This document shows, piece by piece, positions 24,360 through 47,959 of a DNA stretch of 64,000 nt. The notes beneath the pieces were generated by a model, which saw nothing but the letters and a program-made list of their open reading frames with translations, did no database searches and was not told where the DNA came from. Position 1 is the first letter of the stretch, and each line of letters opens with the position of its first letter. The translations under genes were made by a program, and so were the position numbers. This DNA comes from Arcobacter lacus (lineage in GTDB: Bacteria; Campylobacterota; Campylobacteria; Campylobacterales; Arcobacteraceae), in contig NZ_MUXF01000001.1 of assembly GCF_003063295.1 (NCBI RefSeq), forward strand, positions 248,001 through 312,000, written 5' to 3'.

Positions 24360-25223
24360 TTAACTAATTTTTTCTCTTTGAAACATTGTTAATAAATCTG
24401 TCAAAGTTTGCTTCATCTTAGATCTATTAACAACCATATCAATAGAACCTTTTTCAAGTAAAAATTCTGCTCTTTGGAAACCTTCTGGTAAATCTGCACC
24501 AATTGTTTGCTTAATAACTCTTTGTCCTGCAAATCCAATTAATGCTCCTGGCTCAGCCATAATAATATCACCTAAAAAAGCAAATGAAGCAGAAACTCCT
24601 CCCATTGTAGGATCTGTTAAAATAGAGATATATGGAAGTTTTGCATGATCAAGTTTTTTAAGTGCTGCAGAAGTTTTTGCCATTTGCATTAAAGCAAAAG
24701 TTGATTCTTGCATTCTAGCTCCTCCAGAAGCTGATACAATAATTAAACCTTGCTCTTTTTCAATAGCTCTATTTACAGCTCTTACTATCTTCTCACCTTC
24801 AACACTTCCTAAACTTCCACCCATAAAAGAAAAATCAAAAACTACCATTTGAACAGGAATTGAATTTATAGTACATTCTCCACTTACAACAGAAGATGTT
24901 CTTCCTGTTTTATCAAAAGCTTCCTCAACTCTTTTTTTATAAGAAGTTTTATCTACAAATTTTAAAGGGTCATTTGGTTTTAAATCTGCATCAAATTCAA
25001 CAAAACTATTTTCATCAGATAGAATTTCTATTCTTCTTTTTGCACCAATTCTCATATGGAAACTACATTTGGGGCAAACATTATCTTGATTTTCTACCTC
25101 TTTAAAAAACATTAATGCACTACAATTTGGACATTTTATCCAGTGAGTTGGTGCATCTTTTTTTGTTGGTTGTTCTTTTTTACTATCAAAAGATATTTTG
25201 CTAAACAAGTTTTTTAAATCCAT
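24360..25223 (-). CDS. accD: Acetyl-CoA carboxylase carboxyltransferase subunit beta
   Basis: AccD pairs with AccA to move the carboxyl group from biotin to acetyl-CoA, the first step of fatty acid synthesis. I choose the ATG at 25223-25221, 5 nt after AAAGGAG, giving 287 residues; an upstream ATG at 25250 would lie inside the hairpin element and is unlikely. A four-Cys zinc ribbon, '[12 protein letters not shown]' and 'VCPKCSFHM', is followed by the crotonase-like core with '[10 protein letters not shown]', '[12 protein letters not shown]' and 'GFAGQRVI'. The family match is clear. The ribosome-binding site is part of a perfect 13-bp inverted repeat, which suggests translational control. Confidence 0.97.
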
Positions 25224-25230
25224 ATATACT

Positions 25231-25263
25231 CCTTTTAAATTGGTTCCCAATTTAAAAGGAACC
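25231..25263 (-). repeat. Palindromic leader element before accD (copy 1)
   Basis: CCTTTTAAATTGG (25231-25243) and CCAATTTAAAAGG (25247-25259) form a perfect 13-bp inverted repeat with a 3-nt loop, flanked by GGAACC (25258-25263). On the minus-strand RNA the 3' arm includes the accD Shine-Dalgarno. A second, nearly identical copy lies at 47881-47911 before ubiE. No T run follows, so it is not a classical terminator. Confidence 0.75.
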
Positions 25264-25284
25264 TTTCTTTTTTTACTATTTTAT

Positions 25285-26493
25285 TTAAAGATTTTTAAAT
25301 TTCTCTAATTCATCTAATTTTTCCCAAGGATAATCACTTTGTCCTACTTGTCCACGTGCAGCAACATCTGCATAAAGGAAAGTATCAACACTTGGTTTAT
25401 CCAAAGCAAATTTTTGTGTAATCCATCTTGGTGTTAATGGGAAATTTTCCATAACAAAAGCTGATAATACATCATCATTATGTTTTGTATAAGTTCCCAT
25501 TGTATCAACAGCAACTGATGTTGGACGTGCAACTCCAATAGCATAAGATATTTGAACTATTGCTTTTTTAGCAAGTCCAGAAGCAACTATATGTTTTGCT
25601 ATCCATCTTGCAGCATAAAGTCCACTTCTATCAACTTTAGTGTAATCTTTACTACTTTGTGCTCCACCACCAATAGGTGCATATCCACCAAAAGAATCAA
25701 CAATCAGTTTTCTTCCTGTTAAACCACTATCATGTAATGATGAGTGATTTACATATCTTCCTGTTGGATTTATATGAATAATTGTACTATTTTTATCATA
25801 CAATTTATCAGGTAATCCAGAGTTGTCAATTAAGCCTTGAATCAATGTTCTTACTTCTTCAATTGGCATTCCTTCAACAGAAGGAGCACTTACAACTATT
25901 GTATGAATTTTTTGTGGTTTACAATTTTCAAAATTCTCTTTTGTACCATAATCAACAGTAACTTGAGTTTTTATATCAACCCCTAATTTTTGATTATTTT
26001 TTAAAGCATAATTATAAACTGTATCACAAAGTTTTCTTGCATAAACTATTGCTGCAGGCATAAATTCATCTGCTTCATTTGAAGCAAATCCAAACATAAT
26101 TCCTTGATCACCTGCTCCAATTTCTCCAGTTGTTTGGTCAACTCCTTGAGAAATATCAGGACTTTGCTGATTTAATAAAACTTGTACTTTTACATCATCA
26201 GGATGAAGTGCTTGTTCTTTTGTAAATGCACTTTTTCCGTCATATCCAATTTTTGCTAATGCATCTTTTACTATTTTTTCATAATCATTTTGTGATAATT
26301 TTGCATTAGATTTTACTTCACCACCAATAACTATGTGTTTTCCAGCTACAAAAACTTCACTTGCAACTCTACTATTATTATCTTCTATTATTAATCTATC
26401 AACTATTGAATCTGCAATAATATCAGCACATTTATCAGGGTGTCCAGGGCTTACTACTTCACTTGTAAATAAGTATTGAGATTTTTTTTCCAT
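25285..26493 (-). CDS. metK: S-adenosylmethionine synthetase
   Basis: MetK makes S-adenosylmethionine from ATP and methionine. From the ATG at 26493-26491 the protein has 402 residues and begins MEKKSQYLFTSEVVSPGHPD, the normal N-terminus. The frame stays open to ATGs at 26505 and 26544, adding up to 17 residues (including KACGK) not expected in the family, so I prefer the inner start, which has GGA 7 nt upstream. Family motifs 'GAGDQGIMFGFA' and 'GGGAQSSKDYTKVDRSG' are present. The upstream region carries four copies of a 10-bp repeat around a small hairpin. It precedes accD by 61 nt. Confidence 0.96.
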   Translation of the reverse strand: MEKKSQYLFTSEVVSPGHPDKCADIIADSIVDRLIIEDNNSRVASEVFVAGKHIVIGGEVKSNAKLSQNDYEKIVKDALAKIGYDGKSAFTKEQALHPDDVKVQVLLNQQSPDISQGVDQTTGEIGAGDQGIMFGFASNEADEFMPAAIVYARKLCDTVYNYALKNNQKLGVDIKTQVTVDYGTKENFENCKPQKIHTIVVSAPSVEGMPIEEVRTLIQGLIDNSGLPDKLYDKNSTIIHINPTGRYVNHSSLHDSGLTGRKLIVDSFGGYAPIGGGAQSSKDYTKVDRSGLYAARWIAKHIVASGLAKKAIVQISYAIGVARPTSVAVDTMGTYTKHNDDVLSAFVMENFPLTPRWITQKFALDKPSVDTFLYADVAARGQVGQSDYPWEKLDELEKFKNL

Positions 26494-26494
26494 T

Positions 26495-26557
26495 TTGTTT
26501 TCCATCCTTTGTTTTCCACAAGCTTTGCTTGAGTTGTTTTCCATCTTTTGTTTTCCA
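26495..26557 (-). repeat. Four TGGAAAACAA repeats and a hairpin at the metK start
   Basis: TTGTTTTCCA (TGGAAAACAA on the coding strand) occurs exactly at 26495-26504, 26509-26518, 26534-26543 and 26548-26557. Each pair is spaced 14 nt apart, so the layout looks like a 39-bp unit present twice. The hairpin CAAGC-TTT-GCTTG (26519-26531) sits between the pairs. Three repeats carry an ATG, so they supply alternative starts near metK. It may be a small duplication or a regulatory leader; no known SAM riboswitch is recognised. Confidence 0.6.
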
Positions 26558-47138: not shown

Positions 47139-47163
47139 AATTTACCTTTATTATTGCAAAAAA

Positions 47164-47874
47164 CTATATTTTTTTTGCAATAATTAAAGTTGAAATATTC
47201 ATAGAAAAAGCTTTCACATAAACTGGCTCTAAACCTGATTGTTTTAACTCTTTACATAAATTCTCAGTTGTTAAAAACTCATCAATTGAATCAGGTAAAT
47301 ATCTGTAAGCTTCTTTATTTTTAGAGATTAATCCACCTAAAACTGGAAGAACTTTGTTTAAATAAAAATCAGTTAAATGATCAAGTAAATTCTCTTTTTT
47401 ATTTTTAGTAAATTCATTTATTACAACTAAACCATCTTTTTTCAAAACTCTTGCAAACTCATCAAAAGCTTCTTGTCTTTGAACTACATTTCTAATACCA
47501 TAAGAAATAGAGATAATATCTGCACTTTTATCAATCAAAGGCATTTGTGTAGCATAAGCTTCTATAAATTCAACATCAGGAAGTTTTTTCTTACCAACTT
47601 CCATCATACCAACGCTTGGATCAACACCAATAATATTTTTTAAATTTATACCATTTTCTTTTGCGACTTGTTGCCAAAAAAGTATCATATCACCTGTTCC
47701 ACAAGCAACATCAACTATCTTTTCTATATCTTTTTTTGCATACAATTCAAAAGTTTTATTACAAGCTTTATTTCTCCAAGATTTATCAATTCCCATTGAT
47801 AAAACTCTATTTGCTATATCATAAGTTCCTGCTATATTATTAAACATCGATACAATTTTTTCTTGTTTTTCCAT
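47164..47874 (-). CDS. ubiE: Demethylmenaquinone/ubiquinone methyltransferase
   Basis: UbiE/MenG carries out the C-methylation of menaquinone (or ubiquinone) precursors. The 236-residue protein has 'MFNNIAGTYDIANRVLSMGID', the SAM motif 'VDVACGTGDMIL', 'ISYGIRNV' and 'GLVVINEFTK', all typical. Campylobacterota use menaquinones, so the menaquinone reaction is the likely one (gene also called menG). The ribosome-binding site is AAAGGA, lying inside the palindromic element shared with accD. Confidence 0.93.
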   Translation of the reverse strand: MEKQEKIVSMFNNIAGTYDIANRVLSMGIDKSWRNKACNKTFELYAKKDIEKIVDVACGTGDMILFWQQVAKENGINLKNIIGVDPSVGMMEVGKKKLPDVEFIEAYATQMPLIDKSADIISISYGIRNVVQRQEAFDEFARVLKKDGLVVINEFTKNKKENLLDHLTDFYLNKVLPVLGGLISKNKEAYRYLPDSIDEFLTTENLCKELKQSGLEPVYVKAFSMNISTLIIAKKI

Positions 47875-47880
47875 AATTTT

Positions 47881-47911
47881 CCTTTTAAATGATTCCCATT
47901 AAAAAGGAACC
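47881..47911 (-). repeat. Palindromic leader element before ubiE (copy 2)
   Basis: CCTTTTAAATG (47881-47891) and CATTAAAAAGG (47897-47907) form an 11-bp inverted repeat with one mismatch and a 5-nt loop, flanked by GGAACC (47906-47911). The sequence nearly matches the copy at 25231-25263, with two single-base gaps and a few substitutions. As before accD, the 3' arm on the RNA contains the ribosome-binding site of the next gene. Confidence 0.75.
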
Positions 47912-47959
47912 GTTTTATTTAATAACAACTTTTAGAACAAAGTCTAAATTTTAATTTTT

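Follow-up and report, generated by a model that had tools for sequence, protein, structure and literature searches.

In the window, the 64,000-nucleotide stretch of DNA analyzed here, two short palindromic elements lie directly before genes on the reverse strand. The first separates a metK-like gene (25285..26544, (-), with Pfam S-adenosylmethionine synthetase domains) from accD (24360..25223, (-), ATG at 25223). The latter encodes the acetyl-CoA carboxylase carboxyltransferase beta subunit with the Pfam domains Carboxyl_trans and Zn_ribbon_ACC, and an identical protein in genome G003 passes the NCBIfam accD cut-off. The initial annotation correctly located a palindrome at 25231-25263. On the coding strand the element, GGTTCCTTTTAAATTGGGAACCAATTTAAAAGGA, spans 25230..25263 (-) and reads GGTTCC-TTTTAAATTG-GGAACC-AATTTAAAAGGA, with perfectly complementary arms of 14 nt. 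The 3' arm (25230..25243, (-)) holds the Shine-Dalgarno (SD) sequence AAAAGGA at 25230-25236, and the 5' arm (25247..25260, (-)) forms the anti-SD side of a stem termed helix A. A second helix, termed B, can form between the segment GGTTCC (P; 25258..25263, (-)) as 5' strand and the loop segment GGAACC (25242..25247, (-)) as 3' strand. A terminator function of the element for metK was rejected because the coding strand continues with GTATATATG after the hairpin, rather than with a U-run.

The second element precedes ubiE (47164..47874, (-), Pfam Ubie_methyltran family) and occupies 47880..47911 (-), with the coding strand GGTTCC-TTTTTAATG-GGAATC-ATTTAAAAGGA. The near-copy announced by the initial annotation thus exists and follows the same design, though its arms are imperfect and its loop segment is GGAATC (47891..47896, (-)), which introduces a G-U pair in helix B with the P segment GGTTCC (47906..47911, (-)). 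The 3' arm was also rightly said to hide the ribosome-binding site, as AAAAGGA lies in the 3' arm of both elements (47880..47886, (-), for ubiE), 6 nt from the ATG in accD and 5 nt in ubiE. The exact pattern proposed in the initial annotation occurs once in the window against an expectation of 0.00 in 100 dinucleotide-preserving shuffles, and GGTTCC and GGAACC strings are confined to the two elements within the 64 kb. The accD leader folds at -16.3 kcal/mol, with z-scores of -3.1 (81 nt) and -4.3 (46 nt). The ubiE leader folds at -13.0 kcal/mol (z -1.6, 91 nt) or -9.9 kcal/mol (z -2.3, 51 nt), and is therefore by itself only mildly unusual. By stem length, a crude measure, accD ranks second and ubiE fourth among 57 gene starts of the window, with an unrelated hairpin before xseA ranking first and a hairpin folding at just -2.7 kcal/mol ranking third. 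What distinguishes the two hairpins is their shared sequence and their relatives elsewhere, not the length of their stems.

Relatives of the elements are widespread in the Arcobacteraceae. A loose pattern of the hairpin, termed H2, matches in 12 of the 31 genomes of the genus Aliarcobacter. A covariance model (R1) was built from 13 copies having H2, an additional upstream hairpin (H1) and the SD, and counts obtained with it favor copies of this kind. The model matches the window at both genes (E 5.8e-5 over 25231-25312 for accD; E 8.4e-8 over 47880-47947 for ubiE). At E <=0.1, it matches in 31/31 Aliarcobacter genomes with 1 to 18 matches each, and in 78 of 104 Arcobacteraceae genomes covering 16 of 20 genera, with up to 22 matches per genome; a small number of reverse-strand images and of tandem copies enter these per-genome counts. 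No R1 match was found in the remaining 26 of the 104 genomes. When 298 genomes from the order were scanned at E <=0.01, 27 of 30 family genomes matched, compared to 3 of 268 others, and these three have one match per genome at E >=0.0019, which is about the chance expectation. A strict H2 pattern search of genome contigs retrieved 18 stretches, at least 11 of them from other phyla or unrelated groups, which look like plain palindromes.

The alignment of H2 copies revealed that the elements belong to a larger leader of ~125 nt with three hairpins. The order is a hairpin T, a CUUUAG linker, H1, an A-rich spacer of ~12 nt, H2 and, after 5-8 nt, the start codon. H1 has the form CUACUUUU ... AAAAGUAG with a variable inner stem, corresponding to CTACTTTTA-stem-GNTAAAAAGTAG as a DNA pattern. 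Upstream of H1, T takes forms such as GGCTTTGTTCTCAAAGCC or GGCAACTCGTTGCC; CTTTAG and then a short U-run come next. Among the matches listed, 159 copies were analyzed (160 were fetched, 100 from Aliarcobacter and 60 from the rest of the family). The linker was recognized in 126 of these 159, and T forms a helix of at least 6 pairs in 128 of the 149 copies with an anchorable linker-like word. Some copies have an extra variable hairpin in or beside T, for instance CUUUAGAGUUUUCGCAAAGAGAGUUCUAAAG, in the regions upstream of H1 at loci L122 and L143. Recurrent unpaired sequence, judged by eye, is limited to the internal loop of H1 (A / GNUA) and the CUUUAG linker.

An intrinsic terminator or attenuator would be a GC-rich hairpin running directly into a U-run; T usually precedes CUUUAG plus a short U-run. 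Most leaders without a same-strand stop within 150 nt carry T, which therefore looks like a part of the leader and not merely the end of the upstream gene. A TATAAT-like box lies within 95 nt upstream of H1 in 19 of 29 such leaders, a count without an AT-matched control. Three loci (L056, L061 and L070) have H1 but no recognizable H2, with SD and start codon following directly after H1; one of them precedes a gene whose protein begins like adk. Together with the window copies, which retain H2 only, these leaders indicate that the modules are separable. Separable modules would suit a constitutive leader, in which T and H1 would serve mRNA protection or processing (through cleavage in the U-rich linker) and H2 would only hold translation at a low fixed level or link it to that of the gene upstream. 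Coupling would also fit the gene neighborhood, since in 139 of the 159 copies among the matches listed the closest ORF upstream lies on the leader's own strand, with a median of 42 nt between its stop and H1. However, 14 of the 159 copies have a divergent upstream neighbor (6 are unclear), where coupling would be needless.

The window copies themselves appear to be worn-down versions of this larger leader RNA. H1 is absent from both, while H2 is retained with its A and B pairings. In genome G003, H1 is present in shortened form in the accD leader, and the ubiE leader keeps all of T, linker, H1 and H2. Comparison with G003 indicates that H1 and the upstream parts of both leaders were lost through deletions in the window genome. 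Other copies in the window genome retain H1, among others those before hom, urtE and hypA. Copies in this genome also precede urtE and UAAP1, both associated with urea use, and hypA (C8:65207-68248; C19).

Leader copies are nearly confined to gene starts. Among the matches listed, 155/159 copies are followed within 25 nt by the start of an ORF of 60 codons or more, and in 142 of those 155 the distance to the start codon is 5-8 nt. Because R1 includes the SD, a pattern restricted to H1 served as a check blind to H2 and SD. With one locus (the first) taken per genome, 22 of 29 have an SD plus the start of an ORF 20-60 nt downstream in one orientation only, 0 in both and 7 in neither. Some of the seven failures (L062, L067 and L069) consist of a recurrent sequence devoid of leader features.

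Base pairing in T, H1 and the SD-hiding helix covaries strongly across copies, as judged by sequence comparison. In helix A, CCUUUUAAAU pairs with AUUUAAAAGG and covers the SD. An alignment of 103 distinct rows to R1 (A2), which is fitted to helix A and outer H1 and so favors this structure, has changes on both sides in 20 of 21 pairs. Double-change cells number 193, compared to 43.0 (sd 7.8) in shuffled versions, and 94.9% of cells are paired compared to 48-71% in slid versions. Swap tests, which are alignment-free and exclude swaps within gene clusters but retain other relatedness, gave a mean Watson-Crick run of 5.28 for T against a highest value of 3.87 in 200 swaps, and of 6.18 for inner H1 against a highest value of 4.16 in 200 swaps. 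Mismatches in helix A are few, and GU outnumbers AC by 14 to 5 in 102 distinct copies, which leans towards selection acting on RNA. The accD arms at L261, in another genus, are compensated (CCUAUAAAUU / AAUUUAUAGG). The initial annotation would have taken many copies away from gene starts (a sign of a neutral repeat), or a lack of conserved pairing in relatives, as refuting its reading. Neither was found, given the compensated arms and the confinement of copies to gene starts.

Helix B is formed by GGUUCC or GGUCCC in P, just upstream, and GGAAC(C) or GGGAC in the loop. The two helices are mutually exclusive because the CC of the 5' arm is common to both. Helix B was assessed in 115 distinct copies, after 17 of the 159 were dropped for a poorly parsed helix A. 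P and loop segments change together, with GUCCC facing GGGAC in 36/41 cases, GUUCC facing GGAAC or GGGAAC in 33/38, GUUUCC facing GGAAAC in 4/5 and GGUUACC facing GGUAACC in 2/2. The mean Watson-Crick run of 5.43 exceeds the swapped mean of 4.33 and the highest of 200 swaps (4.66), as well as the value from same-genome swaps (4.81). Within the groups g1 and g9, the runs of 5.61 and 5.16 exceed the highest of 500 swaps (5.00 and 4.87, respectively).

On the covariance model alignment, the evidence for helix B is narrower. Changes on both sides occur in 3 of 6 pairs, which shuffles equalled in 282 of 500 cases. Double-change cells (28 vs 14.9) and the covariation score (0.188 vs 0.150) beat 500/500 shuffles, with the excess residing mainly at one position, which is U-A in 52 rows and C-G in 24. 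This position is independent of helix A, since the helix A partner is an A in 23 of 25 C-G rows and could pair with U only. Helix B cells are paired in 86.8% of cases, though a slide of -2 pairs 91.3% of its 207 cells. Helix B covaries as well, on narrower evidence than helix A. Both the upstream hairpins and this competing, covarying second helix escaped the initial annotation.

The calculated energies of the two folds are close. A helix A of at least 8 bp and a helix B of at least 5 bp are both possible in 109 of the 115 distinct copies, with median energies of -10.5 and -8.3 kcal/mol, respectively. In constrained ensembles at 37 C, the median advantage of A is 2.2 kcal/mol; A is favored in 79% of 127 copies, and temperature has little effect. 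In the window, helix A reaches -16.3 compared to -8.1 kcal/mol for B in accD, and -9.9 compared to -5.6 kcal/mol in ubiE. The equilibrium dominance of helix A would also be expected of the constitutive leader outlined above, but a fixed damper leaves both the co-variation of P and loop and the energy balance of A and B unexplained. We consider such a constitutive role unlikely, though still deserving some weight. The AU-rich stem that hides the SD might also recall an RNA thermometer, in which helix A would melt upon warming. Yet the calculated opening of the SD (median of 127 copies) is ~0.00 at 5 C and reaches no more than 0.05 at 42 C, or 0.10 at 50 C, and a thermometer would leave helix B, T and H1 unexplained, making this a very improbable explanation.

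We suggest that the hairpins are the 3' module of a family-specific, cis-acting leader RNA that controls translation of the downstream gene through two rival folds (probability roughly 0.6). The position at gene starts, the covariation of T, H1 and helix A, the narrower covariation of helix B and the close calculated energies are read directly from the sequences. From these features we infer that A would repress, B would activate, and T and H1 would sense a signal. The U-rich arm of helix A would cover the SD and turn translation off, and pairing of GGUCC or GGUUCC with GGGAC or GGAAC in the loop would leave the SD free and turn translation on. In nascent folds, helix B is complete once the loop is transcribed and before the SD is made, so the leader could start open and close later. 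It would then relax to the closed state, with helix A being ~2 kcal/mol more stable once the SD has been made. A trans factor, either a protein or a small molecule, might bind T and H1, set the winning state and possibly hold the leader open. Having lost H1, the window copies before accD and ubiE would act as fixed translational dampers. Of the initial annotation's reading, the recurrence of the hairpin and the hidden SD are supported, and the pairing is conserved in relatives. The hairpin turned out to be just the 3' part of a three-hairpin leader, and co-regulation of accD and ubiE would be conjectural, both copies in the window genome lacking H1.

The genes served by the leader are diverse. 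Grouping the 155 downstream proteins by similarity gives 74 clusters of unrelated function, 14 of which span more than one genus, so that the lipid- or quinone-specific control envisaged earlier does not hold. One protein per cluster was scanned against NCBIfam for the 40 clusters with at least two members (the other 34 have a single member), and 26 of the 40 passed a curated cut-off. These are cysK, urtE, hom, thrB, a DJ-1 family protein, hypA, sufC, adk, cysD, thrC, hisA, kdsA, transaldolase, hypB, ddl, thiD, truD, yajQ, metE, the urea amidolyase-associated UAAP1, a tautomerase, accD, aroQ, hemE, a thiol peroxidase and ilvD. Many are biosynthetic, and no single pathway stands out. Given the sparse conservation of unpaired sequence and genes without an obvious common function, no signal suggests itself. 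Tandem pairs of leaders occur before thrB (G017:C57:5156-5361), a gene of the HIT type (G081:C1:42794-42990) and hemE (L228, 890-1086); the upstream copy of the G081 pair lacks the AAGGA end.

Several copies per genome at unrelated genes, and the occurrence of tandem copies, could point to a mobile palindromic repeat similar to REP or MITE elements, inserted at ribosome-binding sites and bringing its own SD. The history of the accD copies could be read in the same way. The family has 104 accD genes, and among the 30 leaders read, the element is present in four (the window genome, G000, as well as G003, G005 and G013), while the other 26 lack it, in most cases with metK and accD close together and a plain SD. 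In a different genus, G065 also carries the element, and its arms are compensated. A supported clade of the accD tree comprises G000, G003, G005, G013, G027 and G030; four of these six genomes have the element, and at least four gains or losses are required overall. Most simply, these would be one gain and two losses in the clade and a separate case in G065.

However, the similarity of copies argues against recent mobility. The mean score for copies at a shared gene is 67.6 when both come from one genus and 55.8 across genera, whereas copies at different genes score 37.9 in the same genome, hardly above the 36.4 across different genomes of the genus. The nearest-scoring copy, determined for 106 copies, is at the same gene elsewhere in 82 cases, at another gene elsewhere in 23 and at another gene of the same genome in a single case. 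Copies hence track their gene and not their genome. In addition, the arms vary in sequence with compensation, where a mobile repeat would have conserved ends, and position and orientation are fixed in the 155 of 159 copies noted above. A mobile repeat is thus quite improbable. As to the small dispersed palindromic repeat considered in the initial annotation, the element does recur, but it is not a repeat that spread recently.

Turning back to the leader RNA with two rival folds, the wider proposal is that a single bistable three-hairpin leader acts as a family-wide, plug-in translation switch. Through leader acquisition, it would tie dozens of unrelated biosynthetic and maintenance genes, varying among species, to one global signal in lineages lacking CsrA. 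We hold this wider proposal tentatively, at slightly below even odds. GGA is found both in a loop and within the SD of CsrA-regulated leaders, and most H2 loops and the SD of the leader contain GGA as well. A CsrA/RsmA target, with a CsrA dimer bridging both GGA sites, would account for this likeness. The CsrA domain PF02599, the sole regulator sought, was absent from all 104 Arcobacteraceae genomes searched, whereas the same search was positive for E. coli, B. subtilis and T. maritima among 14 named controls. In some loops, moreover, GGA is missing although the B pairing is preserved (GGUUACC with GGUAACC). CsrA itself is therefore refuted, and a target of this kind retains next to no credibility; another GGA-binding protein may take its place.

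Translational riboswitches likewise decide access to the SD by a pair of sequestor and anti-sequestor helices, and share with the leader a short length and a location directly before the gene. Unlike in riboswitches, the genes served are incoherent, unpaired conservation is sparse, there is no known ligand, and two to three simple hairpins confined to one bacterial family replace a complex aptamer. REP, BOX and Correia/NEMIS elements are short palindromic dispersed repeats with several intergenic copies, a feature in common with the leader. In contrast to such repeats, leader copies track genes, keep the position of the SD and their orientation, and differ by compensating changes.

Rfam returned 0 matches at the gathering score in the window, and 2 matches at E <=0.5 across 12 loci with copies, both away from the element. 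No description of the element was found in the open-access literature, with a possible lead in the passages available from Stav et al. 2019 (PMC6429828). The study reports HRC-4 as a relatively small structured motif from Arcobacter sp. L, and describes most of its other Arcobacter finds as rare and genus-restricted. By description, HRC-4 and the leader are both small structured motifs of the Arcobacter group, and they may or may not be identical in sequence. The HRC-4 passages in PMC6429828 give no mechanism, gene set or bistable fold, in contrast to the leader described here.

Our best reading is that of an uncatalogued translational leader switch, which would be unusual for serving many unrelated genes within one family. 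If true, it would constitute a family-wide post-transcriptional regulon discovered from sequence alone, and its near-balanced folds would offer a ready test system for co-transcriptional switching. The leader could help to find a global regulator that binds RNA in bacteria devoid of CsrA, and account for the long and ordered stretches between genes in the AT-rich Arcobacteraceae genomes. It would also exemplify how one leader is adopted by genes of unrelated function and subsequently degenerates, the window being a case in point.

A further long hairpin in the window, at 47144-47190 (-), is unrelated to the leader (-16.1 kcal/mol, z -3.8). It pairs the 3' end of ubiE with an AAAGG stretch just before the start of xseA (TTG, 47138), and likely represents a translational-coupling hairpin.
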